Part shown: positions 34,906-64,000 of the stretch, in pieces
Numbering within the stretch: the stretch's first letter is position 1
How the letters are laid out: each line of letters begins with the position of its first letter
Assembly: GCF_034048115.1 (NCBI RefSeq)
Contig: NZ_CP139145.1
Location: forward strand, 1,116,001 to 1,180,000
Direction of reading: 5' to 3'
Origin: Pseudarthrobacter sp. IC2-21
Lineage (GTDB): Bacteria; Actinomycetota; Actinomycetes; Actinomycetales; Micrococcaceae
Length of the DNA stretch: 64,000 nucleotides
Program-made: the position numbers and the translations under genes
The notes under the pieces: generated by a model
The model's database searches: none
What the model was told of the DNA's origin: nothing
What the model saw: only the letters and a program-made list of their open reading frames with translations

Positions 34906-34970
34906 GCAACGCGGGGTCAGATACCGCCCAATAACTTCCGATTTTCGGGCGTAATCTGACCCCGCGTTGC
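34906..34970. repeat. 65-bp palindromic element (REP-like/bidirectional terminator)
   Basis: Perfect 17-bp outer arms GCAACGCGGGGTCAGAT (34906-34922) and complement (34954-34970), plus inner GCCC/GGGC pairing. It fills the gap between the converging mgtA and hydrolase genes, 17 nt after one stop and 2 nt before the other. It is a different sequence from the TAGGTAGCGCT family at 49.7, 62.4 and 63.5 kb. Confidence 0.8.
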
Positions 34971-48892: not shown

Positions 48893-49714
48893 TTGACTCC
48901 TCGCACCATTGTGATCAGCGGCGCCAGCGACGGCATCGGCGCGGCAGCCGCACGGACTCTGGCCGCGGCAGGGGACCGGGTGGTCGTCGTCGGGCGTTCC
49001 GCTGAGAAGACGCGCGCACTCGCCAAGGAGCTCAACACGGACTACTTCGTGACCGATTTCGCCGAACTGGCGCAGGTCCGCGAGCTCGCGGCGCAGCTGC
49101 GGGACGGCTACGAACGGATCGATGTCCTGGCCAATAACGCCGGCGGCATCAGGGGCAAACACCAGCTCACGGTGGACGGGAACGAATCCACCTTCCAGAT
49201 CAACCATTTGGCGCCGTTCCTGCTCACCACCGAGCTCATGGACGTCCTGACTGCCAGCCGCGCCAAGGTCATCAACACCTCCAGCGGTGCCAACAACTTC
49301 GGTAAGATCGACCTCTTCGACCTCAACGCCGAGCACAGCTACTCCACCAACCGTGCCTACGGCACAGCGAAACTCGCCAACATCCTCTTCACGTCCGAGC
49401 TGCACCGGCGCTTCGGTGAGCAGGGAATTACGACGGCGGCGTTCCACCCGGGCGTGGTCCGCACCAACTTCGCGGCGGACTCCACCAGCCCCATGCGGCA
49501 CGCCTACAAGACGCTCCTGAACCGCTTTATGCTCACCCCGGAGCAAGGCGCTGACACCCTTCTCTGGCTGATCAACGGCACCCCCGGTACCGACTGGGTC
49601 TCCGGCGCCTACTACTACAAGCGCGCCCTCGCCAAAGCCAACGCCCAGGCCTACGACGCCGAGCTGGCGCAGGGTTTGTGGGAGGCCAGCGAGGCGCTGG
49701 TCCAACCCAAGTAA
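48893..49714 (+). CDS. Short-chain dehydrogenase/reductase
   Basis: A 273-residue classical-type SDR, close to retinol-dehydrogenase-like proteins. Cofactor site SGASDGIGAAAA (10-21), the NNAGG motif (about 82-86), a Ser in INTSSGANN and YGTAKLAN with the catalytic Tyr and Lys. It uses a TTG start (48893) with AAAGGA 7 nt upstream. The last codons and stop lie inside the left arm of the palindromic repeat (CCC AAG TAA), so the element provides the C-terminal Pro-Lys. Confidence 0.88.
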   Translation: MTPRTIVISGASDGIGAAAARTLAAAGDRVVVVGRSAEKTRALAKELNTDYFVTDFAELAQVRELAAQLRDGYERIDVLANNAGGIRGKHQLTVDGNESTFQINHLAPFLLTTELMDVLTASRAKVINTSSGANNFGKIDLFDLNAEHSYSTNRAYGTAKLANILFTSELHRRFGEQGITTAAFHPGVVRTNFAADSTSPMRHAYKTLLNRFMLTPEQGADTLLWLINGTPGTDWVSGAYYYKRALAKANAQAYDAELAQGLWEASEALVQPK

Positions 49715-49765
49715 GTAGCACTAAGTGTCGTTTTGACCCCTCAAAACGACACTTACTGCTACCTA

Positions 49766-50912
49766 GTGGTCTGTCTCAGTTTTGTTTGATGGTCTCGAGG
49801 GCGACGCGGCCGCGGGCTACTTTCTTAAGGATTGAGTCTGCGGTCGCGGTCCATACCAGGGGCTTGGGTTCGGTGTTGTGGGCGGCGAGGTACTCCTCGA
49901 TTTTGGTGATCAGATCCGGTACCGAATGGAACGCACCGCGGCGTAATGCCTTGTCGGTCAGTTCCCTGAACCAGCGCTCGACCAGGTTCAGCCACGAGGA
50001 TGAGGTGGGGGTGAAATGTAGCTGGAACCTCGGATTTCTGACCAGCCAGGCCTTCACGTCCGGGTGTTTGTGGGTGGCGTAGTTGTCCAGGATCAGATGG
50101 ACGTCCAAACCGCGCGGGACTTCCTTGTTGATGGTTTTGAGGAACACCAGGAATTCCTCGTGCCGGTGCTTGGGCAGGCACGAGCCGATGACTTTTCCGG
50201 TGGCCACGTCCAGGGCGGCGAACAAGGTGGTGGTGCCGTTGCGTTTGTAGTCATGGGTCATTGTTTCGGCCCGGCCCTTCGTCATCGGAAGGGACGGCTG
50301 GGTGCGGTCCAGGGCCTGGATCGAGGATTTCTCGTCCATGCACAGCACGATCGCCTTCTCCGGCGGGTTCAGATACAGACCAACGACATCGATGAGTTTT
50401 TCCTCAAACTTCGGATCGTTGGAGAGCTTGAAAGTATCCACGAGGTGTGGTTTCAAGCCCCGGGCCGCCCAGATCCGCTGAACCTGCGCCGGGGACACAC
50501 CCACCTTCGCGGCCATCGTCCGCACCGACCAGTGCGTGTGTCCTTCGGGCTTGGAATTGCGCGTCAGATCAACGATTTCATCGATCTTGGACTGTGGAAT
50601 GACCGGCTTGCGGCCACGCCCGGCACGCACCTCGCCCAAGTGGGCCAAGCCTTCTGCCTCGAACCGGGCCCGCCACGACCTGACCGTCCCCGGACTCAGC
50701 CCGGCAACCTTCGCGATCGAATCATTGGCCAACCCCTCCGCGGCCATCAACAACACCTGCGCCCGCTGAACCTCGCGATGGGACGCCGTCTGCGACTTCG
50801 CGAGCACCTCCAACAAAGCACGCTGGGAATCAGAAACCACCAAAGCAGGAGCAATGTTCGCCATTACACAAGCATAACGCTCAAAGCATCAACTATTTTG
50901 GAGACACACCAC
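49766..50912 (-). mobile_element. IS630-family insertion sequence, intact
   Basis: A 1147-bp element flanked by a duplicated TA (49764-49765 and 50913-50914), the usual IS630/Tc1 target. Terminal inverted repeats: left GTGGTCTGTCTC, right (complement) GTGGTGTGTCTC, 11 of 12 identical, with a further shared TTGATG at position 21-26 from each end. It carries a single transposase gene that fills nearly all of it. The insertion site is a CTAG within the palindromic repeat. Confidence 0.95.
49776..50864 (-). CDS. IS630-family transposase
   Basis: A 362-residue DDE transposase. N-terminal helix-turn-helix (about 30-90: REVQRAQVLLMAAEGLANDSIAKVAGLSPGTVRSW), a winged-helix region with HWSVRTMAAKVGVSPAQVQRIW, then the catalytic domain: Asp177 (CMDEKS), Asp260 (LILDNYATHK) and Glu296 (WLNLVERWF), with the 35-residue spacing of the IS630/mariner group. 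The gene is in one frame without frameshifts and so is probably active. ATG 50864 is 48 bp inside the right end of the element. Confidence 0.95.
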   Translation of the reverse strand: MANIAPALVVSDSQRALLEVLAKSQTASHREVQRAQVLLMAAEGLANDSIAKVAGLSPGTVRSWRARFEAEGLAHLGEVRAGRGRKPVIPQSKIDEIVDLTRNSKPEGHTHWSVRTMAAKVGVSPAQVQRIWAARGLKPHLVDTFKLSNDPKFEEKLIDVVGLYLNPPEKAIVLCMDEKSSIQALDRTQPSLPMTKGRAETMTHDYKRNGTTTLFAALDVATGKVIGSCLPKHRHEEFLVFLKTINKEVPRGLDVHLILDNYATHKHPDVKAWLVRNPRFQLHFTPTSSSWLNLVERWFRELTDKALRRGAFHSVPDLITKIEEYLAAHNTEPKPLVWTATADSILKKVARGRVALETIKQN

Positions 50913-50989
50913 TAGTTGGGCCGGGGCGGATGCGCGGGCCGGGCACCACCGAGGCCTGGCACCCTCGACGCCGGAACCGGCGGCTGACG

Positions 50990-51541
50990 TTACTCGCCGA
51001 GCAGGCTGTAGGTGCTGACGACGTTGCCCTTGGACGTGCGGTACTGGTCGGTCAGCCTGAGCCGGGTGGTGGGGTCGCCGGCTTCAAACAGGTGCCGGCC
51101 GCTTCCAGCCACCACCGGGTGGGTCATCAGGGTCAGCTCATCCAGAAGCCCGGCGAACAGCAGCTGGCGTACCAGGGAGATGCTGCCCATAACGGCGATC
51201 TCGCCGCCGTCGCCCTGTTTGAGGTCAGCTACGAAGTCCTCGAGCGGTCCTTGGATCAGGCGGGAATTCTGCCATTCGAGGGGCTCGGTGAGCGTCCGGG
51301 AGGCGACGAACTTCTGCACGCCATTAATAAAGTCGGCGAAACCCTGGTCCGCCGCTGCCGTGGGCCAATAGCCTGCCCACTCCTGGTAATTCACCCGTCC
51401 CAGCAGGACGGTATCCACGCGTTCCATCACACCGGTGAGGCCTTGGCCAAGATCTTCATCGAAGCTGTTGAACTGCCAAAGATTCGGTTCTGACACCACA
51501 CCGTCAACGGAGTGGAACAGACCGGACGTGACCTTGCGCAT
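50990..51541 (-). CDS. Dihydrofolate-reductase-like (RibD C-terminal) protein
   Basis: A 183-residue protein of the DHFR/RibD_C fold. SGLFHSVDGVVSEPNLW at the start, VDTVLLGRVNYQEWAGYWP, EIAVMGSISLVRQLLFAGLLDEL (the GS.L...L..GLVDE pattern) and HPVVAGSGRHLFEAG are typical of the actinobacterial 'dihydrofolate reductase family' group. It is not the housekeeping DHFR. The biological substrate is unknown. GGAGG lies 5 nt before ATG 51541. Confidence 0.87.
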   Translation of the reverse strand: MRKVTSGLFHSVDGVVSEPNLWQFNSFDEDLGQGLTGVMERVDTVLLGRVNYQEWAGYWPTAAADQGFADFINGVQKFVASRTLTEPLEWQNSRLIQGPLEDFVADLKQGDGGEIAVMGSISLVRQLLFAGLLDELTLMTHPVVAGSGRHLFEAGDPTTRLRLTDQYRTSKGNVVSTYSLLGE

Positions 51542-51758
51542 GGGACCTCCAGGGTTTTCGGGGCAGTGCGGGCCGGCGGGGCGCCGGACAACGTCCACGG
51601 TATTCTTCAGTCCGCCGATGGGGAAGAGCGTCAACGGTCAGCCACCCACGTTATGTTCATCACCACCGCCTGCGTGTTGCACGAATCCACGGCCCGGCAG
51701 GCTCATACTTGTCTCTATGCGGCCTTGCGCTGCGCCCCGGCCAGGCAGGAGGAAGTGC

Positions 51759-52283
51759 GTGGAAACCCTGAAAAAAATCGTGAGCAACCAGTATTTCCCG
51801 GCGGCGGCTGTGCTGACCGCCGTAGTGCTGTTTTGGACCATCGCCATGTTCGGCGGCCTCTCCCTCCTGCACAACAACCAGCCGCCCATGGCCACCCTGA
51901 CCTGGATGCTGTTTGTCTACGCTGCCGCAGTGCTCACCCCCTTGGCAGGCATCATCGCCGCCGCCAACCTGATCCGCCGCTGGCGCCGCAACCGCCAGTA
52001 CGCGCAGTACGACTCGGCGGAGTACGAGGCTGAGTTCGAGATGGCGGAGTACGACTCGGCTGAGTCCGAAATGGCCGGGTACGCCACGGCAGAGGACGAG
52101 CATCCCGCCGCTGAGGCGCCCCGGCCGGCGGAAGCACCCCAGCATGCACCCGCCGAGGCTCCCGCCCAAGCCACTCCCGAAGCCCCCCAGCAGGCTCAGC
52201 AGCGACAGGCTCAGAAGCGACCGGCACCGCACCAGCCTGCCAAGCAGCGGACCCAGCCAAAGCAGCGCAAAAAAGCTGCCTAG
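51759..52283 (+). CDS. Two-helix membrane protein with Ala/Pro/Gln-rich tail
   Basis: A 174-residue protein. Two hydrophobic helices (about 10-30 and 45-67), then RRWRRNRQYAQYDS and a long low-complexity cytoplasmic tail: repeats of AEYDSAE/AEYE (about 79-105), then a Pro/Ala/Gln-rich stretch and basic end QRTQPKQRKKAA. The tail has an acidic part and then a basic part. GTG 51759 with AGGAGGAAGTGC upstream. Function unknown. Its stop overlaps the stop of the converging GGDEF-EAL gene by 4 nt. Confidence 0.72.
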   Translation: METLKKIVSNQYFPAAAVLTAVVLFWTIAMFGGLSLLHNNQPPMATLTWMLFVYAAAVLTPLAGIIAAANLIRRWRRNRQYAQYDSAEYEAEFEMAEYDSAESEMAGYATAEDEHPAAEAPRPAEAPQHAPAEAPAQATPEAPQQAQQRQAQKRPAPHQPAKQRTQPKQRKKAA

Positions 52284-54439
52284 GGAAGCCCTGCACGGCT
52301 CGACAAGGCGTCCAGGGCCTGGCCTGAAGTCTTCAGGGCCTGTTCGAACCGGCCGGCGGGTTCCGGGTGGGAGAACAGGTAGCCCTGCAGCGAATCACAT
52401 TCGAGGGCAATGAGGTAGTTCGCCTGCTCCTCGGTTTCGATGCCTTCGGCCGTTACGGTGAGACCCAGGCTGTGGGCCATGTTGATCATGGAGCTGAGAA
52501 TGGGCAGGCGCTCATTGCCGGTGTGCACCATGGAGACAAAGGTCCGGTCGATTTTGAGGATGTCCACCGGGAGCTCCTGCAGCCGTCCCAACGAGGAATA
52601 GCCCGTGCCGAAATCGTCCAACGCCACGCGGGCTCCGGCGGCCCGGAGTTGGCTGAGCTGCCTGATGACGTTGCAGTCGGCGTCGAAGAACACGCTTTCG
52701 GTGACCTCAAGGACCAGCTGGTAGGGTCCCACACCGTATTTCTCCGCGAGCTGCAGCACCTGTTCCGCAAAGTCAGGTTCCTGGAGCTGGACTCCGGAAA
52801 CATTTATGGACAACGACCGTGACAGGTCCGCGCCAAGCCACGTCGCCAGGTGTTTCAGGCTTTGCCCCATCACTTCGGCGCCGATTTCGTTGATGAGCCT
52901 GCTGCGTTCGGCCAGGGGAATGAAGAGTCCGGGCGGGACGCGCTGATCCCCGCGATCCCAACGTGCCAGCGCTTCGAACGTCACCACCTGGTCCATCCGC
53001 GGCGACACGATGGGCTGGAACTCCACGGAGATTTCACTGCGGGCTACGGAGAGCTGGAGGCCGGCCTCAAGGTCAGTCCGCCTGACCAGGGCGGTCATCA
53101 TGTCCGGATGGAACCGCAGGAAGCGGTTCTTGCCCGCTGCCTTGGCCGCGTACATGGCAATATCGGCCTCGCGCAGGAGTTCCGAAGCGCCCAGGGCGGC
53201 CCTGCCTATCGAAGCGAGTCCCAGGCTCAAGCTGGGACGCAGCACGGTGCCCTCGATGGTGAAGGGCACGTGCAGGCAGCGGACAATGCATTCGGCAATA
53301 GCCTCCGCATTGGGGCAGGCCGTCAGCAGGACCACAAACTCGTCGCCGCCCAGCCTGGCCACCACATCCGCGGTGGGCACGCAGCCCCGAAGCCTCCGGG
53401 CGACCTCCACCAGCATGACGTCCCCGGCGTGGTGGCCAAGAATGTCGTTGACCTCCTTGAAGTCGTCAAGGTCAATCAGGAAGACATCCACGGATTTGAG
53501 CCGCGGCTCCTTCAGGGCGGCGAGCAGTTCATTGTTGAAGACCGCCCGGTTCGCCAGTCCGGTCAGCGGGTCGGTGAAGGCCATGGCCCTCAACTGCTCC
53601 GCCTGGGAGGCGAGATCCTGGAGGGCCTGCTGCGCCTGTTCCTGGGCTCTTTGGGCCAGCTCCTGGGCCTGCCGGCGCGGGGTGACATCCCGGAAGCTCC
53701 AGACCCGGCCCACAACTTTGCTCCCCACCCGCTGCGGGCGCGAATACCGTTCGAAGGTCCGGCCGTCCAGGAAGTCCACCACGTCGTGGCTTTCGGCCGT
53801 GGGATCCTGTGTCAGTTCGGACACCCGGGCTAGGAAGTCCTCCGGATCCTTGACTTGGGACAGGATCACCCGCATGGCCGCCTGGTCAGAATCGGCCTCG
53901 ACATATTCCTGCGGTATGGCCCACATCTTCAGGAACTGCTCATTGAGCCCGGCAATCCTGCCCTCGGCACTGATCACGAGGATCCCGTCAGCCGTGGATT
54001 CCAGCGTCGCCGTCAACAGGGACATTGCTTCCCGCAACTCGGCATCGGCGCTCTTCCGGTGTGAGGTGCTGCGGAAAGAAAGCAGCAGCAGTTGCCGGCC
54101 GCCGTCGTCCAGCAGTGAGCCTGCCATTTCGGCGGCCAGGTCCGTGCCGTCACGGTGCAGCATGCGCACTTCACGCGGCGGCGTCGGTTGGCTGGGAGCT
54201 GCCCGCAGGTCTTCGCGCAGCTGGCGGGCCGCCGTCCGGAACGGTTCGCACAGCAGCAGCGAGTGGTCGCTGCCGAGCAGCTTTCCGCGCGGGTACCCGA
54301 ACAGCCTGCTGGACGCGGTGTTCGCGATCCGGATGATGCCGTCCGGATCCAGTGCCAGAAGGGCGTCCGGGCTGGCGTCCAGGAGCACGCCAAACGTCCG
54401 TTCCGCCAAAACCTTGTTCTGCCGCCTGGTTCCCCCCAT
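52280..54439 (-). CDS. PAS-PAS-GGDEF-EAL cyclic-di-GMP protein
   Basis: A 719-residue soluble protein. PAS domains at about 12-128 and 140-255, a coiled-coil linker (AQELAQRAQEQAQQALQDL, 257-285), GGDEF domain (286-445; GGDEF at 364-368 intact) and EAL domain (455-710; EAL at 489-491, NVSG, EVTES, DDFGTGYSS, KIDRTFV, TAEGIE and QGY all kept). Both active sites look functional, but the cyclase inhibitory site is PTAD instead of RxxD, so feedback inhibition is probably lost. ATG 54439 is chosen; a TTG lies 6 nt upstream. Likely a switchable enzyme. Confidence 0.93.
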   Translation of the reverse strand: MGGTRRQNKVLAERTFGVLLDASPDALLALDPDGIIRIANTASSRLFGYPRGKLLGSDHSLLLCEPFRTAARQLREDLRAAPSQPTPPREVRMLHRDGTDLAAEMAGSLLDDGGRQLLLLSFRSTSHRKSADAELREAMSLLTATLESTADGILVISAEGRIAGLNEQFLKMWAIPQEYVEADSDQAAMRVILSQVKDPEDFLARVSELTQDPTAESHDVVDFLDGRTFERYSRPQRVGSKVVGRVWSFRDVTPRRQAQELAQRAQEQAQQALQDLASQAEQLRAMAFTDPLTGLANRAVFNNELLAALKEPRLKSVDVFLIDLDDFKEVNDILGHHAGDVMLVEVARRLRGCVPTADVVARLGGDEFVVLLTACPNAEAIAECIVRCLHVPFTIEGTVLRPSLSLGLASIGRAALGASELLREADIAMYAAKAAGKNRFLRFHPDMMTALVRRTDLEAGLQLSVARSEISVEFQPIVSPRMDQVVTFEALARWDRGDQRVPPGLFIPLAERSRLINEIGAEVMGQSLKHLATWLGADLSRSLSINVSGVQLQEPDFAEQVLQLAEKYGVGPYQLVLEVTESVFFDADCNVIRQLSQLRAAGARVALDDFGTGYSSLGRLQELPVDILKIDRTFVSMVHTGNERLPILSSMINMAHSLGLTVTAEGIETEEQANYLIALECDSLQGYLFSHPEPAGRFEQALKTSGQALDALSSRAGLP

Positions 54440-54448
54440 GCGCAACCA

Positions 54449-54480
54449 CCCCCACGCACATCATAAAGTGCGCGTGGGGG
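54449..54480 (-). terminator. Hairpin between Ugd and GGDEF-EAL genes
   Basis: CCCCCACGCAC (54449-54459) pairs with GTGCGCGTGGGGG (54468-54480) with a 2-nt bulge and a loop of 8 nt. It lies after the stop of the minus-strand ugd gene and just before the start of the GGDEF-EAL gene. Confidence 0.5.
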
Positions 54481-54507
54481 TCCCGTGGCAAAAATGCGTG
54501 ACTTTTG

Positions 54508-55899
54508 CTACGAGTGGCGCATCCCGGCGAGGCCGTCCCCGGCCGCCTGGACGGCCTCGCCGGAGTTGGTGCCCAGCCCGCGGACCACCCACCCCTCGGC
54601 CCGCCAGGCCGCAGCATCCAGGACGTTCCGCCCGTCCAGGACCACCCGGCGTCGGACGAGTCCGCCTGCAAAAGCGGGGGACAGGCGGCGGTACTCATCC
54701 CACTCGGTCAGCAGCAGCACCAGTTCGGCACCCTCCAACGCCCGGGCAGTGGAGGATTCAAACCGCAGCTGCGGATAGCGCAGCCATGCGTTGTTCACGG
54801 CCTTCGGATCCGTCACGGTCACATGCGCTCCGGCAGCTGCCAGCCGGGTGGCGACGTCCAGCGCCGGGGAGTCACGGATGTCATCGGTCTCCGGTTTGAA
54901 GGCGGCGCCGAGGATGGTCACGGCCCGGCCGGAAAGCTCCCCGCCGCACAGGCCGGCAGCAAGTGCGACGGTCCGGGTCCGCTGGCGGACGTTGATCGCG
55001 TCCACCACACCCATCCAGTCGTTGACCGGGGCCACCCCCAGGGCGGCGGCCTGGCTGCTGAGGCTGCGGATGTCCTTGGGCAGGCACCCGCCGCCGAAGC
55101 CGAGGCCCGCATGCAGGTAGCGGCTGCCGATCCGGGGGTCCATGCCCATGGCCTCGCTGAGTTCGGCCACGTCCGCCCCGGACGCGTCGCACAGTTCGGC
55201 GATGGCGTTGATGAAGCTGACCTTGGTGGCCAGATAGGCGTTGGCCGCCGACTTGATCAGCTCGGCCGTGGCGAAGTTGCACACCAGGCGGGGAATACCG
55301 GCATTCAGGAGTGGCTCGTAGACGGCGTCCAAGGCAGCTGTCACCCCGCGCGGCGCACCGGTCCCGGGGTTGAAGGCCGCCGCCTTGCCGCCCGACACGC
55401 CGTACACCAGCCGGTCCGGCACCAGCGTGTCCTTCACCGCGGTGCCCTGGCGCAGGAACTCCGGGTTCCAACCCAGCTGCACGTCCGGCCGCCCGGCCAG
55501 GACGTCACGGAGCATGTCCACGGTGCCCACGGGCACCGTTGATTTACCGACGACGACGGCGCCCCCCGCCAGGTGCGGGAGCAGCGCCTCGGTGGCGGCC
55601 ACCAGAAAGGTGAGGTCGGCGCCGTCGGACGTTTTGGACTGCGGCGTCCCGACGCACAGGAAGTGCACCTGGGCGCCGGCCGCGGCGGCGAAGTCCGTGG
55701 AGAACGTCAGCCGCCCGGTGGCGGTTCCGTCGCGGAGCAGCTCGTCCAGGCCGGGTTCGAAGAAGGGCGCCACGCCACGGCCCAGCTGGTCCACCTTGGC
55801 GGCGTCCACATCAATGCCCACCACGGTGTGGCCCATGGAGGCGAGCGTGGCGGCGTGCACGGCGCCGAGGTAGCCGCAGCCGATCACGGATATTTTCAC
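54508..55899 (-). CDS. ugd: UDP-glucose 6-dehydrogenase
   Basis: A 463-residue NAD-dependent enzyme that oxidises UDP-glucose to UDP-glucuronate for cell-surface glycan. GCGYLGAVHAATLASMGH (NAD site), CVGTPQ, STVPVGT, NPEFLRQGTAVKD, KSAANAYLATKVSFINAIAELC, the catalytic Cys in GFGGGCLPKD, and GAAFKPETDDIRDSPAL are all present. The usual length is about 440-460. It overlaps the upstream glycosyltransferase gene by 4 nt, so both work in the same glycan or glycolipid pathway. Confidence 0.96.
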   Translation of the reverse strand: MKISVIGCGYLGAVHAATLASMGHTVVGIDVDAAKVDQLGRGVAPFFEPGLDELLRDGTATGRLTFSTDFAAAAGAQVHFLCVGTPQSKTSDGADLTFLVAATEALLPHLAGGAVVVGKSTVPVGTVDMLRDVLAGRPDVQLGWNPEFLRQGTAVKDTLVPDRLVYGVSGGKAAAFNPGTGAPRGVTAALDAVYEPLLNAGIPRLVCNFATAELIKSAANAYLATKVSFINAIAELCDASGADVAELSEAMGMDPRIGSRYLHAGLGFGGGCLPKDIRSLSSQAAALGVAPVNDWMGVVDAINVRQRTRTVALAAGLCGGELSGRAVTILGAAFKPETDDIRDSPALDVATRLAAAGAHVTVTDPKAVNNAWLRYPQLRFESSTARALEGAELVLLLTEWDEYRRLSPAFAGGLVRRRVVLDGRNVLDAAAWRAEGWVVRGLGTNSGEAVQAAGDGLAGMRHS

Positions 55900-57077
55900 A
55901 GGGACACTCCTCGTTTGGACTCGGCCGGCCGGATGACCGGATGGCTCGCGATAACTTCGTGGTACTGCTCCTCAAGCCGGGCGCACAGCGCGGGCCACGT
56001 CCGGTCCTGGACCGAGGCGTGCGCCGCCGCGGCGAAGGCGCGGCGCTTGGCGTCGTCGCCCATGAGGTCCAGCACGCGGGCCCGGAAACCGGCCAGGTCC
56101 CCGGGCTGGTACAGCCAGCCGGTGCGGGAGTTTTCCACCAGGTCCAGGGGCCCGCCGCGGCCGGTGGCCACCACGGGAACGCCCGAGGCCATGGCCTCCT
56201 GGATGGTCTGGCAGAACGTCTCAAACTCGCCGGGATGGACAAAGAGATCGAACGAGGCGACGGCCCTCGCGAGCTCCTCGCCGCCGAGGAACCCGGTGAA
56301 ATGGGCGCCCGGCAGTGCTTCCTGCAGGGCGGCCCGCTGCGGACCGTCACCCACGATCACCAGTCTGGAGTTCGGGATTTCGGCGAGTGCCGCGAGGTCC
56401 TCCACCTGCTTTTCGATGGCCAGCCGGCCGACGTAGCCGATGATCCGCTCACCGCCGGGCGCCACGGCTGCCCGCCACCCGGCGTCGCGCTTTTCCGGCG
56501 AAAACCGCGCGGTATCCACGCCGCGCCGCCACATGCCCACCCGCGGGATCCCACGGCCGCGCAACTGATTCAGCGCGAACGTGGACGGCACCAGGGTCCG
56601 GGTGGCCAGCAGGTGGATGTTCTCCACCCTGTTCCACGCCCAGTTCTCCAGGAACGGCACGCCATACCGGGCCGCATAGCTGGGCACCTCGGTCTGGTAG
56701 ATGGCCACGGTGGGGATCCGCAACTGATGCGCCGCCTGCACCGCCCGCCAGCCGAGGATGAACGGCGAGGCAAGGTGGACCAGGTCCGGTGCGTAGTCGG
56801 CAAGGATTCGCTTGACCCGGTACACACCGCCCATCGCCACTCTGACGTTCGTATAGCCCGCCAGCGGAACCGCGGGAACCCGGAGCACCTTCGCGCCGTG
56901 AACCACCTCGGCCGGGCCTACATACTCGGCCAGGGCGTCGGCGACCGGATGGGTGGAGGGGGCGATGACCAGGACGTCGTGACCCTGACCCTCCAGATGC
57001 TCAAGCACCCGCAGGATGGAGTGGGTCACCCCGTTCATCAATGGCAGGAATGATTCGGCAACAATTGCGATCCTCAC
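55896..57077 (-). CDS. GT4-family glycosyltransferase (GDP-mannose alpha-mannosyltransferase type)
   Basis: A 393-residue GT-B glycosyltransferase. The N-terminal acceptor domain begins MRIAIVAESFLPLMNGVTHSILRVLEHL; the C-terminal donor domain contains GYVGRLAIEKQVEDL, RLVIVGDGPQRAAL and the EX7E motif HPGEFETFCQTIQEAMASGVPVVA. The sequence is close to mycobacterial/corynebacterial MgtA/MgtB-type mannosyltransferases, which make glucuronosyl- or diacylglycerol-linked mannolipids. The link to ugd (making UDP-glucuronate) fits a Man-GlcA-diacylglycerol glycolipid (inference). Confidence 0.9.
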   Translation of the reverse strand: MRIAIVAESFLPLMNGVTHSILRVLEHLEGQGHDVLVIAPSTHPVADALAEYVGPAEVVHGAKVLRVPAVPLAGYTNVRVAMGGVYRVKRILADYAPDLVHLASPFILGWRAVQAAHQLRIPTVAIYQTEVPSYAARYGVPFLENWAWNRVENIHLLATRTLVPSTFALNQLRGRGIPRVGMWRRGVDTARFSPEKRDAGWRAAVAPGGERIIGYVGRLAIEKQVEDLAALAEIPNSRLVIVGDGPQRAALQEALPGAHFTGFLGGEELARAVASFDLFVHPGEFETFCQTIQEAMASGVPVVATGRGGPLDLVENSRTGWLYQPGDLAGFRARVLDLMGDDAKRRAFAAAAHASVQDRTWPALCARLEEQYHEVIASHPVIRPAESKRGVSL

Positions 57078-57251
57078 CCCTCCACGGTGCGCCCGCCGCC
57101 TGACGCGGCGGGGTCACGCTGGTTGAGCCGAGGGAAAGGTTGGGTGAACACGGGGCGGAACGATTCGGGGAAATGCATCAGCGCTTCCGTTTAGGTAATC
57201 GGCCTGCCTACGGTAGAAGCGCAGCTGTACCCGAACCTCAAAGGAGACGTC

Positions 57252-57668
57252 ATGCTTACGAGGGAAGACATTGAAGGGCTGCTCAGCAAGGGCGGCAACG
57301 TTGCGGGGTCCGACGGCGGCAAGATCGGCGGGCTCGGCCAGCTCTACTCCGATGACGACACGGGTGAGCCCGCCTGGGTGACGGTCAAGACCGGACTCTT
57401 CGGCACCTCGCAGTCCTTTGTCCCGGTGGAAGGGGCCAGAATCGACGGCGCCGACCTTGTGGTTCCCTACACCAGGGACCAGGTCAAGGACGCTCCGCGG
57501 GGGGACACGGACGGACGCCTCGACCCCGCGGAGGAAGCCCGCCTGTACACGCACTACGAGAAGGGTGTCCGGACCTATTCCGAGGCACGGACGGACACCG
57601 GAGAGGCCCGCGGCAGGCTGCGGAAGTACCGCGCCGGAGCTGGCGGCACCGAGGACCCGCGCCGGTAA
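57252..57668 (+). CDS. PRC-barrel domain protein
   Basis: A 138-residue protein with a PRC-barrel (about 1-80): DIEGLLSKGGNVAGSDGGKIGGLGQLYSDDDTGEPAWVTVKTGLFGTSQSFVPV, then LVVPYTRDQVKDAP, and a short charged tail with EEARLYTHYEKGV. The same domain plus DUF2382 is common in stress-related YsnF proteins; here the DUF2382 part is missing. AAAGGAGACGTC precedes ATG 57252. Probably general stress related. Single-gene unit. Confidence 0.85.
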   Translation: MLTREDIEGLLSKGGNVAGSDGGKIGGLGQLYSDDDTGEPAWVTVKTGLFGTSQSFVPVEGARIDGADLVVPYTRDQVKDAPRGDTDGRLDPAEEARLYTHYEKGVRTYSEARTDTGEARGRLRKYRAGAGGTEDPRR

Positions 57669-57746
57669 GCAGCCCGCGCCTAAGCACCATCGGACGACGC
57701 CGTGAGCTGCTTTGGGGCTCCCGGACCCCCTCCTGCAATATGCCGC

Positions 57747-58577
57747 TTAGCCCGGGCCGAGAATTTCCCGGGCTATGCGCTGTGCTTCGAGTTCTTCCGG
57801 TGACGCCGTTTCGCCGCGGAGGTATCCGGCGTTGGCGATGGCCTGGCGGAGTTCCACCTCGGTCCTCGCAGCGTTCACCCCGCGGTGGGCCATCGCATGG
57901 CAGTTGGCGCACAGCGGGACCAGATCCGTGAGCGGGTCCAGCTGGTAGGTGCTGCCAAGCTGCGAGTCCGGCACCGTATGGTGGACGTCGATGAAGTCTG
58001 CGCCGATCTCCCCGTACGCCACTTCGAAGGAGAACCCGCAGGCCGCGCAACTGGTCCCGCGCTGGGCGATGCAGGCCCGCCGCGCCTCGGGGTCGCGTTC
58101 GTACCGGTTTGCCGGGACGTGGACCACGGCGTTCCCCGGGTAGGTGCCGGGTGCCGGCAGGGTGGGGTCCGGTCCCTGGCCCGGTCCGACGCGGGCCCAC
58201 AGGTCCCGGAGATGGAGCTCCTCACCCGGGCCAAGCTCCACGCTTGCGCCGCCGGCGTTCTCACCGAGGCGCTGCCATGGGGCGCCCGGCAACGCGCCAG
58301 TAAGAACGTCAGCGGGAACGTGGTCCCCGAGGGGCAGGAGCGCGTCGAACGCCACGAGCGGCTGCCCGGCGCCTGTGCCCGCCACCACGCCGTGACCCAG
58401 CAGGCCGGGACCGTGAGTTCCCTGCAGGACCAGCCAGGCGTCAGTGCCCGCAGGGATGTCCCGGCCCGCCTGCCACGGCTCGACATGCAACCCGGAGGCG
58501 GCCACCCGGTCAACGGCGGCCGCATAGTTCCAGCGGTCCCAGCTTGCAGGGTCCCAGCCGAGGATGATGGCGCTCAT
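57747..58577 (-). CDS. HNH endonuclease with N-terminal EVE/PUA-like region
   Basis: A 276-residue protein. The C-terminal HNH nuclease (about 170-250) has two zinc Cys pairs (CAACG, CANCH), FIDVHHTVP with the metal and catalytic His, LVPLCANCHAMAHR and the Asn. The first 110 residues (SAIILGWDPASWDRW, AWLVLQGTHGPGLLGHGVVAG) are unusual and look like an EVE/PUA-type base-reading fold, as in modified-base-dependent restriction enzymes (inference). The end of the gene contains a 9-bp inverted repeat (57748-57775). No methylase is adjacent. Confidence 0.82.
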   Translation of the reverse strand: MSAIILGWDPASWDRWNYAAAVDRVAASGLHVEPWQAGRDIPAGTDAWLVLQGTHGPGLLGHGVVAGTGAGQPLVAFDALLPLGDHVPADVLTGALPGAPWQRLGENAGGASVELGPGEELHLRDLWARVGPGQGPDPTLPAPGTYPGNAVVHVPANRYERDPEARRACIAQRGTSCAACGFSFEVAYGEIGADFIDVHHTVPDSQLGSTYQLDPLTDLVPLCANCHAMAHRGVNAARTEVELRQAIANAGYLRGETASPEELEAQRIAREILGPG

Positions 58578-58782
58578 GCCTCATTCTTGCATCGAGGATT
58601 TCCCGGTCCGGCACGCAGGGCCCCTCCGCGGCGATGGCGGCTCCGGCGCGGGCCGTGGCATAAGGAAGCCGGTGCAGCTGTTCGCGGGACCGCGCCAACT
58701 GCACCGGCGAGTAGGACGAATATTCAGAATTTACGGATCATTCCTCATGCGCGGCTCCCATGTCCCGGCTTGTCTTTCCGGG

Positions 58783-59244
58783 CTACGCCCTGTCCCCGGC
58801 CCTGGTGCGGGTCAGCAGCCAACCGCAAACGATCATCGCTACGCCCAGCACCAGGTGGGTCCAGTTGTCCGTCATGTTCAGCGACAGGAAATTGGCCGCC
58901 GACCCTACACCGACACTGAGTCCAAAAATGCTGAGGATGATGTACAGCGCACCGGCGCCCATCAGGAAATTGCGTGCGCCGTGTTCGGTCCGGGACATCG
59001 CCCAGCCCGTTGCGCCGATGGCCATCTGCACAACGTTCAGCAACATGGACACCTGAAACACACCAAGGAACATGGCATGGGAATCAGGCCCAAGGAACAT
59101 CAATTCGCTGTACCGGGTGGTGACGCCGGGGACAAAGCCCAGGATACCCACTGCCAACATGAGAATACCTACACCCATGCCCGCATTCTGGACGTCTGCG
59201 CGTCCGAAATGTACACCGTGGGCATGTGGGGATGCGGTAGTCAT
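58783..59244 (-). CDS. DUF4383 membrane protein
   Basis: A 153-residue, four-helix membrane protein of the DUF4383 family: GMGVGILMLAVGILGFVPGVTT at the N-terminus, FLGVFQVSMLLNVVQMAIGATGW, NFLMGAGALYIILSIFGL, and NWTHLVLGVAMIVCGWLL at the end. The family is frequent in actinobacteria with no known role. ATG 59244 (MTTASPH) has GGAGG upstream. It is divergent from the DUF6350 gene. Confidence 0.88.
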   Translation of the reverse strand: MTTASPHAHGVHFGRADVQNAGMGVGILMLAVGILGFVPGVTTRYSELMFLGPDSHAMFLGVFQVSMLLNVVQMAIGATGWAMSRTEHGARNFLMGAGALYIILSIFGLSVGVGSAANFLSLNMTDNWTHLVLGVAMIVCGWLLTRTRAGDRA

Positions 59245-59383
59245 TTTCTGCCTCCAACCACTGATTGCGGACAATCCAATTTTACGGCGGAGCTGTGGAA
59301 AAAGCGCCGAAATCGGCTCCGATGCGGCTGCGACGCCTGTCGCAGACCGGCTGGCGGGTCCGGCCGTGACACCATGGGAAACG

Positions 59384-60694
59384 ATGAAACTGCGCGCTGA
59401 TCAGACCGGAGACCGTGGCCTTCCCATGCCCTTATGGCTGCAGGGCGCCCTCGAAACGGCGCAGGCGGCCATCATCTCGGCGCTCCTGGTCCTGGTGCCC
59501 ATCGTTGCCGTCTGGGCGACCGGAGGTTTTCAGAACACCGCGTTCGACGCGTTGGCCCGGCTTGCCGGCCAGGCTTGGCTGCTGATCCACGGCGTTCCGC
59601 TGGAACTGGCCGACGCCGGAACCGGCGCGGCCCGCAGCGCAAACTCTGGCCTGCTCACCCTGATTCCGCTCGGGCTCACCCTCATCCCCTTCCTGCTCGC
59701 CTGGCGGGCCGGGCGGCGGCTGGCCCGCGCCTCGTACACGGACCAGCTGTGGCAGGCGTTGCTCGGTTCGTGGCTGGTCTACTCGGCCTTCGGCGCGGCT
59801 ACCGGCTTTGTGTGCCGCACGCCGGACGTCGTCATCAACATCTGGCACGCCATGCTGATCCCCCTGATCCCGTTCGCCCTGGGCATGGTCATCGGAGCGC
59901 GCCGCGAAGCCGGGTCGTGGAGCCGGCTGATCGGCGTCGATGCCGTGGACTGGATTTCCCGCACCAGCCAGCATTCGCGCTGGGCCGGATCCTACCTCGG
60001 GTCAGCCGCGAAAGCCGGCTTCCTGGCGCTGGTGTCCGCGCTGACGCTCGCGTGCGTGCTCCTGGCTGTTGACCTCGTCATCCATTGGAACCTGGTGCTG
60101 ACCGTTTATGAAGGGCTCGACGCCGGCGCGGTAGGGGGTGCGGCGCTCACCATTGCGCAACTCGGCTACCTGCCCAACCTCGCGGTCTTTGCCCTGGCCT
60201 GGATCAGCGGCTCCGGTTTCGCCATGGGCGTCGGCTCGCAGGTGGGGCCGCTGGGCACCGCCACCGGGCCCCTGCCCGCCATCCCGGTCTTCGCCGCGAT
60301 CCCGTCCGGGCCGCTGGACTACGGCTTTGTGGCCCTGGTGGTCCCGGTGCTGGCCGGGGTCCTGGCCGGCTGGTGGTTCCTCCGTGAAGGCGAAAACCAC
60401 TTTGATGAATGGCTGTCCATCAAAGTGCACGCCCGCTGGTTCACTGCCACTGCCTCCACCTTGGCCCTCGGCGTCCTGATCGGCGCCGTTGCAGGACTGC
60501 TGGCGGCCGCACTGGCCTGGCTGGCCGGCGGCTCCGCGGGGCTGGGACGCCTCACCGACATCGGTCCCGACCCCTGGTGGCTGGGACTCTGGCTGGCCGC
60601 TGAAGTGGGGATCGGCGTCGTCATCGGTTACGCGGCCGGTCCATGGCTGGAACGCCAGCAACAGGTCGACGCGGACGCGGAGCTGGTCTCCTAG
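59384..60694 (+). CDS. DUF6350 membrane protein
   Basis: A 436-residue, about ten-helix membrane protein of the DUF6350 family, which in actinobacteria typically lies near purN/purH and sucCD. LLTLIPLGLTLIPFLLAWRAGRRLARA, LAWISGSGFAMGVGSQVGPLGTATGPLPAIPVFAAIP and VPVLAGVLAGWW are visible and conserved as I recall. ATG 59384 (MKLRADQ) is in frame; ATG 59374 is not. Function unknown; synteny suggests a cell-envelope or metabolite role. Confidence 0.85.
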   Translation: MKLRADQTGDRGLPMPLWLQGALETAQAAIISALLVLVPIVAVWATGGFQNTAFDALARLAGQAWLLIHGVPLELADAGTGAARSANSGLLTLIPLGLTLIPFLLAWRAGRRLARASYTDQLWQALLGSWLVYSAFGAATGFVCRTPDVVINIWHAMLIPLIPFALGMVIGARREAGSWSRLIGVDAVDWISRTSQHSRWAGSYLGSAAKAGFLALVSALTLACVLLAVDLVIHWNLVLTVYEGLDAGAVGGAALTIAQLGYLPNLAVFALAWISGSGFAMGVGSQVGPLGTATGPLPAIPVFAAIPSGPLDYGFVALVVPVLAGVLAGWWFLREGENHFDEWLSIKVHARWFTATASTLALGVLIGAVAGLLAAALAWLAGGSAGLGRLTDIGPDPWWLGLWLAAEVGIGVVIGYAAGPWLERQQQVDADAELVS

Positions 60695-60855
60695 CTTTAG
60701 CTGGCGCGTGTAGCCCGCGGACGGCCGGTCCGGTGTCACCCTTGCCGTTCGCTTTTGCGGCACAAATCATTCCGGCACCATCCGGTTTGGCCGGGTGGTT
60801 TGGGGCTAGTGTTGCTGGGGTCGGCACCTGCCGCGAATACCCTCAGGGAGGGTGC

Positions 60856-61350
60856 ATGAACTCCACCACATCCGGTTCGAACCAGTCCAGCTCCGAGCAG
60901 TTCGGGCAGCACCTAGCCAGCATCGGGGGTTCAGAGGCTGACCTCGGCGGATCCGCCTACACGGTCACCGATGACGACACCGTCCAGAGCGTGGCCTCGG
61001 GCCTGCGGATCGAACAACAGCAGCAGGGCACCCCCGTGAGCACGCCAGCCATTCTGCACGCATCCGCGGAGGTCCTGATCAGCAGGCGCGATGAAGGCGA
61101 CCCCGAAAGCCACGCCGGAACGTCCCATGCGGGGGAGTACCAGTTGGACATCCACCTCAGCGGGGATCGCAGCACCCGGGAATCCATCCCTCAAAAGGAC
61201 CTCGAGCAGGCCCGGATCTGGGCGAAAGGGCGGATCGAGGCTGAGGGCGCGGACTTCGGTGCCATCTACTTCCCTACCGGAGGAGGCATCGAACCCGGCA
61301 CCGGAGCGCTTGAATGCCGTTACGACCGGGCGGTGGGCTGGTACCGGTAG
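60856..61350 (+). CDS. Hypothetical protein
   Basis: A 164-residue soluble protein of unknown function. The first 50 residues are rich in Ser, Gly and Gln; the rest has alternating strands (AEVLISRRDEGD, EYQLDIHLSG, IYFPTGGG) that may form a small beta fold. It ends in VGWYR, and the last 18 bases are the first unit of a tandem repeat that includes the stop. GGGAGG precedes ATG 60856. I do not recognise the family. Confidence 0.72.
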   Translation: MNSTTSGSNQSSSEQFGQHLASIGGSEADLGGSAYTVTDDDTVQSVASGLRIEQQQQGTPVSTPAILHASAEVLISRRDEGDPESHAGTSHAGEYQLDIHLSGDRSTRESIPQKDLEQARIWAKGRIEAEGADFGAIYFPTGGGIEPGTGALECRYDRAVGWYR

Positions 61351-61386
61351 GTGGGCTGGTACCGGTAGGTGGGCTGGTACCGCTAG
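61333..61386. repeat. 18-bp tandem repeat (3 copies) spanning a stop codon
   Basis: Units 61333-61350, 61351-61368 and 61369-61386 (GTGGGCTGGTACCGGTAG; last copy differs at one base). Each unit encodes VGWYR-stop in frame, so the upstream gene has three stops in series; the last unit also supplies the stop of the convergent gene. Confidence 0.9.
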
Positions 61387-61811
61387 CGGAGGCCGGGCAT
61401 TGACTGCTCCAGCTGGACACGGCAATTGGACATTGCCTGGTCCGTCAGGGCTTCCCGCTGGCAGGCCTGGAACTCCTGGACCTGGCTGAAGAACACCGCT
61501 GAGGCCAGGATGACCAGCAGCATGATGAGCGAAACCACCAGGCCCGCGATGGTGCCGAACAGGACCAGCCGGGACTCCTTCAGCTTTGCCGACCGGACCA
61601 GCAGCATGATGCCCAGGACAAAGCTGGCCGCCGTCAGGATGCCGGTGAGCCAGAGGTAGCTGACGTCCAGCTGGTAGACGAAAAAGGCGCCGAGCACGGT
61701 GAGAATGAAGATCCGGAACAGGTTGCGGGTCTTGCTGAGCGAGGTTTTCGCGGCCTCGCTGAGCTGCGGTTTAGTCCGCTGCTGGCCAGCTGGTTCCGGG
61801 GGAGTAGTCAT
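61383..61811 (-). CDS. Small membrane protein, three hydrophobic segments
   Basis: A 142-residue membrane protein. Two helices are close together (about 30-50 and 52-75) and a third strong one (85-110: FGTIAGLVVSLIMLLVILASAVFFS), followed by a short extracytoplasmic tail with two Cys (QACQREALTDQAMSNC) that might form a disulfide. The family is unknown. It is divergent from purN (39-bp gap) and its stop lies in the tandem repeat. Confidence 0.75.
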   Translation of the reverse strand: MTTPPEPAGQQRTKPQLSEAAKTSLSKTRNLFRIFILTVLGAFFVYQLDVSYLWLTGILTAASFVLGIMLLVRSAKLKESRLVLFGTIAGLVVSLIMLLVILASAVFFSQVQEFQACQREALTDQAMSNCRVQLEQSMPGLR

Positions 61812-61850
61812 GGATTCCAGCCTACGCGAGCCTGCCCATAAGCTAGACCC

Positions 61851-62411
61851 ATGCGCATCGTAGTCCTCGTTTCCGGTACCGGCTCCAACCTCCAGGCCGT
61901 CATTGACGCCGTGAAGTCCGGGGAGCTGGACGTGGAAATCGCGGCGGTGGGTGCCGATCGTGAGGGGACCTACGGGGTGGAGCGTTCGTCCGAGGCCGGG
62001 CTGGAAACCTTTGTGGTCAACTTCAATTCGTTCCCAACCCGCGACGAATGGGATGCCGCCCTGACGGCGAAGGTGGCTTCCTACGCCCCGGATGTGGTGG
62101 TCTCCTCCGGCTTCATGCGGATTGTCAGCGCCGACTTCATCGATGCCTTTGACGGCAAGTACCTCAATACCCACCCCGCGCTGCTGCCGGCGTTCCCCGG
62201 TGCCCACGGCGTCCGCGACGCCATGGCCTACGGCGTGAAGGTGACCGGCTGCACGGTGCACTGGGCCGACGCCGGCGTGGATACGGGCCCCATCATCGCC
62301 CAGGAAGCCGTCGCCGTTGAGCCGGGGGACACCGAGGACACCCTGCACGAGCGGATCAAGGTGGTGGAGCGCCGCCTCCTGGTGTCCACCCTGGCAGCCC
62401 TCGCCGCCTAA
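61851..62411 (+). CDS. purN: Phosphoribosylglycinamide formyltransferase
   Basis: A 186-residue enzyme of de novo purine synthesis that transfers the formyl group from 10-formyl-THF to GAR. The active-site residues are at the same positions as in E. coli: Asn106, His108 (LNTHPALLPAFPGAHG) and Asp144 (DAGVDTGPIIAQE). The GTGSNLQAVIDA N-terminal phosphate loop is clear. Length is normal. A short direct repeat of the gene end (CCGCCTAACCCCTCCC, twice, 62404-62436) and the palindromic element follow. Confidence 0.97.
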   Translation: MRIVVLVSGTGSNLQAVIDAVKSGELDVEIAAVGADREGTYGVERSSEAGLETFVVNFNSFPTRDEWDAALTAKVASYAPDVVVSSGFMRIVSADFIDAFDGKYLNTHPALLPAFPGAHGVRDAMAYGVKVTGCTVHWADAGVDTGPIIAQEAVAVEPGDTEDTLHERIKVVERRLLVSTLAALAA

Positions 62412-62433
62412 CCCCTCCCGCCGCCTAACCCCT

Positions 62434-62499
62434 CCCAAGTAGGTAGCGCTATCTGTCGTTTTGACCCCTCAGAACGACAGATAGCGCTACCTACTTGGG
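62434..62499. repeat. Palindromic element copy 2 (perfect)
   Basis: Perfect 27-bp arms (62434-62460 and 62473-62499) with a 12-nt loop: CCCAAGTAGGTAGCGCTATC and complement. It lies 23 nt after the purN stop and could also be a bidirectional hairpin. The same sequence family is at 49.7 and 63.5 kb. Confidence 0.92.
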
Positions 62500-62562
62500 T
62501 TGACGGAGGGGAGCCTGTGGATAACTTCAGCGGCCTTCTCGCGGGCCTGCCACCATGGGCAG

Positions 62563-63495
62563 ATGAAGGTCCCCAGCGAACTGCCCCAGCCGTTGTCCTC
62601 CCTTCCGTTCACACTGAAAGAAGCGGCCGACGCCGGGATCACCCAACGTAGGTTGCGTCACCAGGGCTTGGGGCGCCCCAGCCGCGGCGTCCGGGTGCCG
62701 GAGGTGGAGGACTGCCCTCTTGACCGCAGCATTCGCCCCTACACCCTGGTTACGGAGTCAGCCGCGGCTTCCCATGCGTCGGCGTTCCTGTTGTGGGAGT
62801 TCCCGGGCTTCCTCCCGGGAAGCGATGAGCAGCTGATTCATATCTCCCGGCCCGATTCGGTGGCCATCATGCGCCGTCCGGGAGTGAAGGGTCACCGGGG
62901 CCAGTTCTTCGACGACGAAATCGTTAATTTCAACGGCCTGCTGGTCACCTCGCGTGCCCGAACGTGGCTGGACTGCGCCCGGAAAATGAGCATTGATGAG
63001 ATAACTGTCGTAGCGGATCACCTGTTGAGGATTCCTCGGCCGGACTTCGAAGGGAGGGCTGAACCCTTCGCGACCAAGGAAGACCTTGAGGATATGCTCG
63101 ACCGGCACAAGGGGACCCCGGGGATTCAAAAGGCCCGCCTTGCCCTCGAACAGGCCAGAGTCGGGGCTGATTCCGCCCCGGAAACGAGGCTGCGGCTGGC
63201 ACTGGAGTACGCGGGATTGCCGGAACCGAAATTGAACATGCGCGCGGACCTGGGAGCCGGCGTCGTACGTCAGCCTGATCTCGCCTATCGGGACCACAAA
63301 GTGGCAGTGGAATACGAAGGCGATGGACACTCTGAGGTGGCCCGGATCGTCAGGGACATCGCCCGCGAGGAGGATTTCGCAAGGGCGGGCTGGCTGCCGG
63401 TCAGAATCTCCAAACGCCACATGCAGAACGACGCGCGGGCCGCCGTCGCCAAAGTCCGTTCGGCGCTTATGACCCGAGGCTGGTCGCCCAAGTAG
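62563..63495 (+). CDS. AbiEi-like/DUF559 protein
   Basis: A 310-residue protein of a type common in actinobacteria. The N-terminal half resembles AbiEi-type antitoxin (winged helix: FTLKEAADAGITQRRLRHQGL; then VTESAAASHASAFLLWEFP). The C-terminal half is a DUF559/Vsr-like PD-(D/E)XK nuclease fold: ETRLRLALEYAGLPEP, QPDLAYRDHKVAVEYEGDGHS with Asp and Glu-x-Glu. No partner AbiEii toxin is adjacent. ATG 62563 is preferred to an earlier in-frame ATG. Its last codons (CCC AAG TAG) are part of the palindromic repeat copy 3. Confidence 0.8.
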   Translation: MKVPSELPQPLSSLPFTLKEAADAGITQRRLRHQGLGRPSRGVRVPEVEDCPLDRSIRPYTLVTESAAASHASAFLLWEFPGFLPGSDEQLIHISRPDSVAIMRRPGVKGHRGQFFDDEIVNFNGLLVTSRARTWLDCARKMSIDEITVVADHLLRIPRPDFEGRAEPFATKEDLEDMLDRHKGTPGIQKARLALEQARVGADSAPETRLRLALEYAGLPEPKLNMRADLGAGVVRQPDLAYRDHKVAVEYEGDGHSEVARIVRDIAREEDFARAGWLPVRISKRHMQNDARAAVAKVRSALMTRGWSPK

Positions 63496-63552
63496 GTAGC
63501 GCTATCTGCCGTTTTGAGCGTCCATAACGACAGTTGGCGCTACCTAGTTGGG
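63487..63552. repeat. Palindromic element copy 3
   Basis: Arms 63487-63513 and 63526-63552 match at 23 of 27. The left arm contains the stop of the AbiEi-like gene. Its right arm CGCTACCTAGTTGGG is the uninterrupted form of the IS630 target in copy 1. Confidence 0.9.
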
Positions 63553-63562
63553 CAAGGGGGGC

Positions 63563-64000
63563 CTAGTCGAGGCGGCGCAGCTTGGTTTCGGGGGAGAAGA
63601 ACGCCATCCACAGCACGGCAACCAGGACAAGCCCGCCGGCCAGGGCGAAGGAGGTGGCCAGGCCGAGCTCGGGCCAGAAGTAGTTGGCGAAAATGAGTGG
63701 CCCAAGGCCGGCACCCAGCCGGGAGAACGTCGAGGCCCAGCCAAACCCCGTGCCGCGCAGCTCCGTGGGGTACAGCTCGGACACATAGGCGTAGAGCACC
63801 GGGATGGCCACCTGGACGATAAAGCCGAACACGAGCAGCCAGAAGATCGCCGCCGACGGGATGTCCACCACAAACGCCACGATCACCAGGGTCAGCGCCG
63901 AGAGCGGGCCCGTGATGGCCAGAATCCACTTGCGGCCCACGCGCTCCACCAGCAGGGCGGCGACCACCACGCCCAGCAGGCCCACGGCCGACATGGAGGC
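63563..64000 (-). CDS. MFS transporter, C-terminal part (5' end beyond the window)
   Basis: The frame is open to the window edge; 145 residues are visible with helices 8-12 of a major facilitator: AALLVERVGRKWILAITG (loop with the RxGRK motif), IVQVAIPVLYAYVSELYPTELRGTGFGWASTFSRLGAGLGPLIF (the typical PTELRGTGFG of sugar/metabolite:H+ symporters) and LVLVAVLWMAFFSPETKLRRLD. The substrate cannot be determined from this part. Confidence 0.88.
   Translation of the reverse strand, partial: ASMSAVGLLGVVVAALLVERVGRKWILAITGPLSALTLVIVAFVVDIPSAAIFWLLVFGFIVQVAIPVLYAYVSELYPTELRGTGFGWASTFSRLGAGLGPLIFANYFWPELGLATSFALAGGLVLVAVLWMAFFSPETKLRRLD

Follow-up and report, generated by a model that had tools for sequence, protein, structure and literature searches.

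A nuclease gene between two palindromes

The window analysed here is a stretch of 64,000 nucleotides from Pseudarthrobacter sp. IC2-21 (contig NZ_CP139145.1, positions 1,116,001 to 1,180,000), near the end of which a nuclease gene is bracketed by two copies of a 66-bp palindrome. The upstream palindrome P1 (62434..62499; the palindromes carry no strand) has 31-bp arms, 97% complementary, around a 4-nt centre. The downstream one, P2 (63487..63552), aligns with P1 over 66 bp without gaps, its arms being 84% complementary. Both fold strongly compared to shuffled sequences (z = −16.2 for P1 and −8.5 for P2), and CCCAAGTA occurs 4 times in the window for 0.55 expected. The family of about 66-bp palindromes put forward in the original prediction, made from the letters of the window alone, is therefore real, with arms of 31 bp in P1 rather than 27.

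The bracketed gene (62563..63495, forward strand), overlooked in that prediction and found here to be the partner gene, encodes a 310-aa protein. Its N-terminal two thirds are AbiEi-like (PADLOC AbiEi models, E 1.9e-13) and are followed by a Vsr/homing-endonuclease-like nuclease domain. This catalytic domain is nearest to the homing endonuclease I-Bth0305I and has the EDxHD/Vsr catalytic fold; a weak MTES_1575/DUF559 match, under Pfam cut-offs, was also obtained in the C-terminal domain. Upstream lies a purN-type formyltransferase gene (PF00551, 61851..62411, forward strand; the name comes from the original prediction), whose stop is 22 nt before P1, so that one copy does lie just after purN as announced. 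Downstream, an MFS transporter gene (PF07690, scanned over 63563-63994; 63563..64000, reverse strand) converges on the cassette and extends beyond the window. No AbiEii/DUF1814 toxin gene adjoins the window cassette, whose neighbours are purN and the MFS gene. According to the original prediction, the window contains no transposase belonging to the element, and a REP-associated tyrosine transposase (RAYT) was named as a gene to look for, REP standing for repetitive extragenic palindrome. No Y1 HUH gene of this kind (PF01797) was found in the window genome, and one of the 37 genomes of the genus has one; a nuclease gene is nevertheless bracketed by two copies.

Positions 1-9 of P2 are the Pro-Lys-stop of the nuclease gene (...TCG CCC AAG TAG). 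A solo copy (first 60 bp, 49706..49765) likewise gives the Pro-Lys-stop (...CAA CCC AAG TAA) of an SDR-family gene (48911-49714), so that two copies supply a gene end, as predicted. The final 6 bp of this solo copy (50915..50920) have been pushed away by an insertion sequence (IS) at about 49766-50912 with a DDE_3 transposase, presumably of IS630 type, which entered at a TA inside the palindrome. Two more copies of the window genome (G000 2397803 and 3374273) abut seemingly the same IS end sequence.

Most nuclease genes have flanking repeats of their own

We then compared flanks of nuclease genes within and beyond the genus. Matching flanking repeats were found at 64 of 75 nuclease loci, many of which are orthologues at purN and hence not independent, versus 7 of 708 control genes, from which 8 nuclease homologues had been taken out beforehand. 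In a subset whose coordinates were fixed before the flanks were seen, the ratio was 33/40. Homologues of the AbiEi-Vsr nuclease were present in 223 of 296 genomes sampled from the class of the window genome. A class-wide fetch yielded matching flanks at 25 of 29 usable loci, and at 22 of 26 outside the genus, with a flank window slightly different from that of the 708-gene control and with 5 of the 26 loci repeating the 75-locus set. Locus L262 was left out because of a contig end; L233, with a flank score of 14, is the same gene as L264, which with an earlier start scores 35.

The two palindromes of a cassette also resemble each other. This was measured on the 28 of 31 cassettes in which both are 66 bp long (L097, L133 and L168 were set aside). 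Over the inner 50 bp, P1 and P2 are 85% identical within a cassette versus 59% between cassettes, a difference reached in none of 10,000 permutations, and the P2 of the same cassette was the best or tied-best match to P1 in 22 of the 28 cases. Among 27 sequences hand-picked from 54 distinct ones to represent the variants, 23 of the 31 base pairs had changed on both sides. The covariation was weaker when only the 21 window-genome copies were used (a score of 0.103, attained by 6 of 500 shuffles, versus 0.081 for the shuffles), and the 6 pairs with double changes were then no more than in shuffles. Throughout, the palindrome length stays at 66 bp while the stem sequence varies.

Besides the window cassette, the window genome contains four further nuclease paralogues with their own flanking repeats and a fifth, weak homologue (L176) without. 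Certain paralogues carry inverted repeats that are not palindromic. One of them is L174 (1160-2405), where these repeats are partly tandem and 32 bp long (GTGAGAGAG...CACATTAA). In another region (L172:542-3064), four genes stand in a row, the third being a nuclease of a second family, B, and a family-B palindrome follows each stop codon by a few nt. We conclude, with high confidence, that palindrome and nuclease are linked.

A further motif accompanies the gene. Between P1 and the nuclease gene, an CTGTGGATAAC box (62515..62525, forward strand) holds the reverse complement of TTATCCACA, which we take to be a DnaA box. This reverse complement, TGTGGATAA, precedes the gene by no more than 420 nt, in the same orientation, at 55 of the 75 nuclease loci; the distance is similar in 54 of these, and in the loci inspected the motif comes after P1. 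Of 729 control genes, 14 have it upstream, and by their coordinates at least 4 of those 14 are themselves nuclease genes. The box could equally be part of a promoter.

Copies across the genome and their placement

A covariance model (R2) was built from 21 copies of the window genome. Its search of that genome scored 150 out of 728 initial candidates, which makes the copy counts lower bounds. At least 52 places were found; at least 42 of them score more than 57 bits, and the 10 others less than 42 bits. Eight of these 10 weak places were inspected and by eye belonged mostly to family B (CATCGATTGCTCC...), which shares the GTTTTGA...TCAAAAC core close to the loop. When one mismatch at most is allowed, this core occurs 35 times per strand in the window genome, versus once for the reversed control pattern. 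Matches to the 66-bp family (family A) were found in 36 of the 37 genus genomes, that of the window included. The element thus extends well beyond the three sites first noticed, and the suggestion that it is a REP-like dispersed element is borne out by copies genome-wide and by presence or absence at orthologous sites. No palindrome copy was found in the phage set, and a single one in the plasmid set, in a 1.35-Mb Arthrobacter record; nuclease protein matches were obtained in 5 plasmid records and 1 phage record. At another place in the window genome (G000:C1:1400464-1401365, part of L057), family-A palindromes at 1400464 and 1401300, some 0.8 kb from each other, surround a gene whose product is rich in proline, seemingly secreted and no nuclease.

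Gene neighbourhoods, called with a simple codon-usage gene caller, were convergent for 23 of the 42 strong copies, tandem for 17 and divergent for 2, versus 39, 227 and 63 for the 329 other intergenic spaces of the same stretches. Mapping relative to stop codons showed that a gene 3′ end adjoins 40 of the 42 copies, at 20 nt or less for 37 of them. A stop codon is supplied by 12 copies (13 gene ends), at element positions 7-9.

This placement, together with the very stable hairpins, would suit palindromes that are chiefly bidirectional terminators or 3′-end RNA hairpins kept for their function, the nuclease using them only as boundaries. As to this part of the original prediction, the placement agrees but the flanking sequence does not. 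In contrast to intrinsic terminators, the copies lack a U-tract (TTTT within 12 nt in just 2 of 84 outer flanks), and a terminator scan of 62300-63700 found none at the palindromes. At locus L115, moreover, a family-B palindrome follows the stop codon of a gene and separates it from an older, GC-rich hairpin that relatives share. The terminator explanation also accounts neither for matched pairs around nuclease genes class-wide nor for a constant 66-bp length amid stem change, and we regard it as unlikely. An Rfam search over 49600-63700 of the window gave 9 microRNA matches only, all under gathering scores.

The L115 site is also a probable trace of insertion. Among 70 loci with this gene end, the family core was present there only in L115 and L126, L157 carrying by eye a collapsed remnant. 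Similarly, 6-7 kb before purN, a palindrome is found in six relatives and none at the same site in L141.

Copy number and presence of the nuclease

Palindrome variants were next searched across genomes. The window-type query gave 71 rows of matches in the window genome, 31 in G060, 33 in G068 and 0-11 in eight others; the variant from L092 gave 15 rows at home and 0-5 elsewhere. Over the 37 genus genomes, in a comparison that ignores phylogeny, the mean was at least 67 rows in the 19 with a full-length A-type nuclease and at least 23 in the 15 without, and the three genomes with nuclease fragments gave at least 78, 53 and 69 rows. Outside the genus, three genomes had at least 77, 79 and 60 rows for one palindrome of family f38; ten others of the family had 0-27 (among the matches listed), and the three genomes of other families had 0.

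States of the purN locus

At 80 purN loci, a cassette was present in 30 cases, an A-type solo palindrome in 6, another palindrome in 4, and no intact palindrome in 18; the remaining 22 were left unclassed, as the downstream neighbour was different or distant. Three of the 18 (L110, L114 and L128) appear by eye to have degraded palindromes. One locus (L103) has its two palindromes around a nuclease gene in reverse orientation.

The idea that the element has rebuilt the C-terminus of its neighbour holds in part. In P2, Pro-Lys-stop belongs to the cassette itself: in 27 of 31 cassettes, positions 7-9 of the palindrome are the nuclease stop. For PurN it stands: of the 31 genomes with a cassette, the window genome being counted among these 31, 11 have the purN stop inside the palindrome. 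The prediction had also held that Pro-Lys conserved without the palindrome would speak against such remodelling. At the 18 loci without an intact palindrome, PurN ends differently in 14, and with Pro-Lys or Pro-Asn in 4, of which two (L110 and L114) look degraded; the ends of the other two (L135 and L148) may be palindrome footprints.

Since one and the same locus can carry either the cassette or a solo palindrome, and the catalytic domain is nearest to I-Bth0305I, homing was considered, in which solo palindromes, of other origin, would be cleavage targets and the cassette would be copied into the cut palindromes. A homing gene, however, would normally interrupt its target site; the present gene instead has an intact palindrome on either side. 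Type-A genes number one per genome among the matches listed, except for two in G032, and more than 40 uncut targets per genome would need an explanation. Homing therefore appears quite improbable.

Other features of the window

Directly before P1, 62402-62435 is a 17-bp tandem duplication (CGCCGCCTAACCCCTCC twice), which a near relative (L091) does not have. A fourth palindrome, absent from the original prediction, is a solo copy of another family (GCAACGCGGGGTCA...TGACCCCGCGTTGC; 34906..34970), between converging genes ending at 34888 and 34973. By eye it resembles the repeats flanking nuclease paralogues in L206, L214, L235, L240 and L242; none of the nuclease paralogues found in the window genome was seen with this type. 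At L094, L134, L136, L160 and L162, other palindromes were noted downstream of purN, the purN-MFS junction being held by several unrelated palindrome families; this junction behaves as if it were a hot spot.

Comparison with known systems

To our knowledge, the best-known example of bacterial palindromes associated with the gene of an enzyme is RAYT/REP. According to the parts of PMC2817692 consulted, RAYTs are marked by a gene flanked by two cognate palindromes, a copy number that follows the gene, gene-palindrome co-evolution and compensatory stem changes, and RAYTs of this description are reported there only in gammaproteobacteria. The present system has the two cognate palindromes around its partner gene, with a different enzyme, and palindromes that are commoner where the gene is present, only partly so for the variant from L163. 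As in TnpA-REP or REPtron, gene and palindrome co-evolve with compensatory stem changes. It departs from REP/RAYT in its enzyme, where an AbiEi-like part joined to a Vsr-like nuclease domain stands in place of a Y1 HUH transposase, in the length of its palindromes (roughly 45-70 bp, 66 in family A), in its occurrence across the class of the window genome, as set against the same excerpts, and in the lack of a shared GTAG/CGTC head, family A ending mostly in CCCAA(C/G)T and other families differing by eye. The ends of family A resemble, we believe, the integron attC core consensus; an attC-like site was dropped as a candidate, as the other palindrome families have other ends.

I-Bth0305I, described in the passages of PMC3943268 used here as a dimer handling a long target of near 60 bp, shares the catalytic fold and the long site. 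It differs from the present nuclease, whose DNA-binding part is AbiEi-like, whose sites are many and dispersed, and whose gene lies between two whole palindromes without interrupting its own target. The MTES_1575/DUF559 restriction endonuclease domains, weakly matched here, are described as parts of giant proteins that also contain HEPN and helicase domains, and the passages of PMC3710099 that present them name no palindromes.

The AbiE likeness, an AbiEi-like antitoxin part, suggests a defence or toxin-antitoxin-like module, with palindromes as operators or self-marks of an AbiEi-type repressor that carries a nuclease effector, and with incidental dispersal. AbiEi binds inverted repeats of its own promoter, as far as the source excerpts go, and P1 is immediately upstream of the nuclease gene. 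Unlike AbiEi antitoxins, the protein is fused to a nuclease and no toxin partner adjoins it in the window; solo copies are also at 3′ ends, not promoters, as the two divergent cases in 42 indicate. Such a module has, in our view, a very small chance of being the explanation.

The system is set apart from RAYTs by its enzyme, the feature that defines them, and from each of the other families considered by some feature that was tested. No description of a palindrome-nuclease association was found in the one open-access library searched, subscription papers and preprints being outside the search.

A proposed role for the nuclease

Our best inference is that the nuclease is the spreader of the palindromes. 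The AbiEi-like part, probably as a dimer, would bind the palindrome as a duplex or an extruded hairpin, and the nuclease part would nick or cut there. Repair could then copy the palindrome into new sites and convert existing copies to one sequence, while recombination between flanking copies would turn a cassette into a solo palindrome, as for solo long terminal repeats. In the genus, most lasting copies would be those at gene 3′ ends, the least harmful position, and such copies may afterwards act as RNA 3′-end hairpins.

Several observations weigh against this interpretation. Matching repeats are missing at 11 of the 75 nuclease loci. The cassette itself seems to move rarely, because in a set of 20 A-type nuclease loci, 16 have purN inside the retrieved flank; the four others (L186, L187, L188 and L192) may be moved cassettes, or be separated from purN by insertions. 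The copy-number comparison has, besides its neglect of phylogeny, several exceptions: seven genus genomes without full-length A-type nuclease still give 26-61 rows, which means that palindromes persist, or use paralogues, without that gene; the variant from L163 is unspecific (8 rows at home versus 20-22 in three others, mostly 74-84% identical); and G064, with a cassette resembling that of G060, gives 9 rows versus 31 in G060. The 3′-end preference is weak in family f38 (27 loci: 8 convergent, 14 tandem, 4 divergent and 1 inside a gene, L285 having no palindrome at the expected place). Finally, no target-site duplication of 4 nt or more was found in 41 copies (2 nt in 3 and 3 nt in 1). This last result also separates the short, palindromic and dispersed elements from a miniature inverted-repeat transposable element, that is, a non-autonomous derivative of a DDE insertion sequence; as the bracketed gene is moreover a Vsr-type nuclease and not a DDE transposase, such an origin has hardly any chance of being right.

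Taken together, we put at about 0.6 the probability that the palindromes are the cognate sites of the nuclease gene, spread in a REP/RAYT-like manner by an unrelated enzyme. For the wider proposal the odds seem even: AbiEi-Vsr fusion nucleases would form a second, independently evolved class of bacterial palindrome spreaders, in which each paralogue maintains its own family by cutting and copying, moulding gene 3′ ends and stop codons. If true, the palindrome-enzyme way of life would have evolved twice, with an unrelated nuclease, many poorly named 'DUF559'-type genes would acquire a role, and the palindrome families at actinobacterial gene ends would have an explanation. Whether palindromes are parasites or recruited 3′-end signals would then become a testable question.
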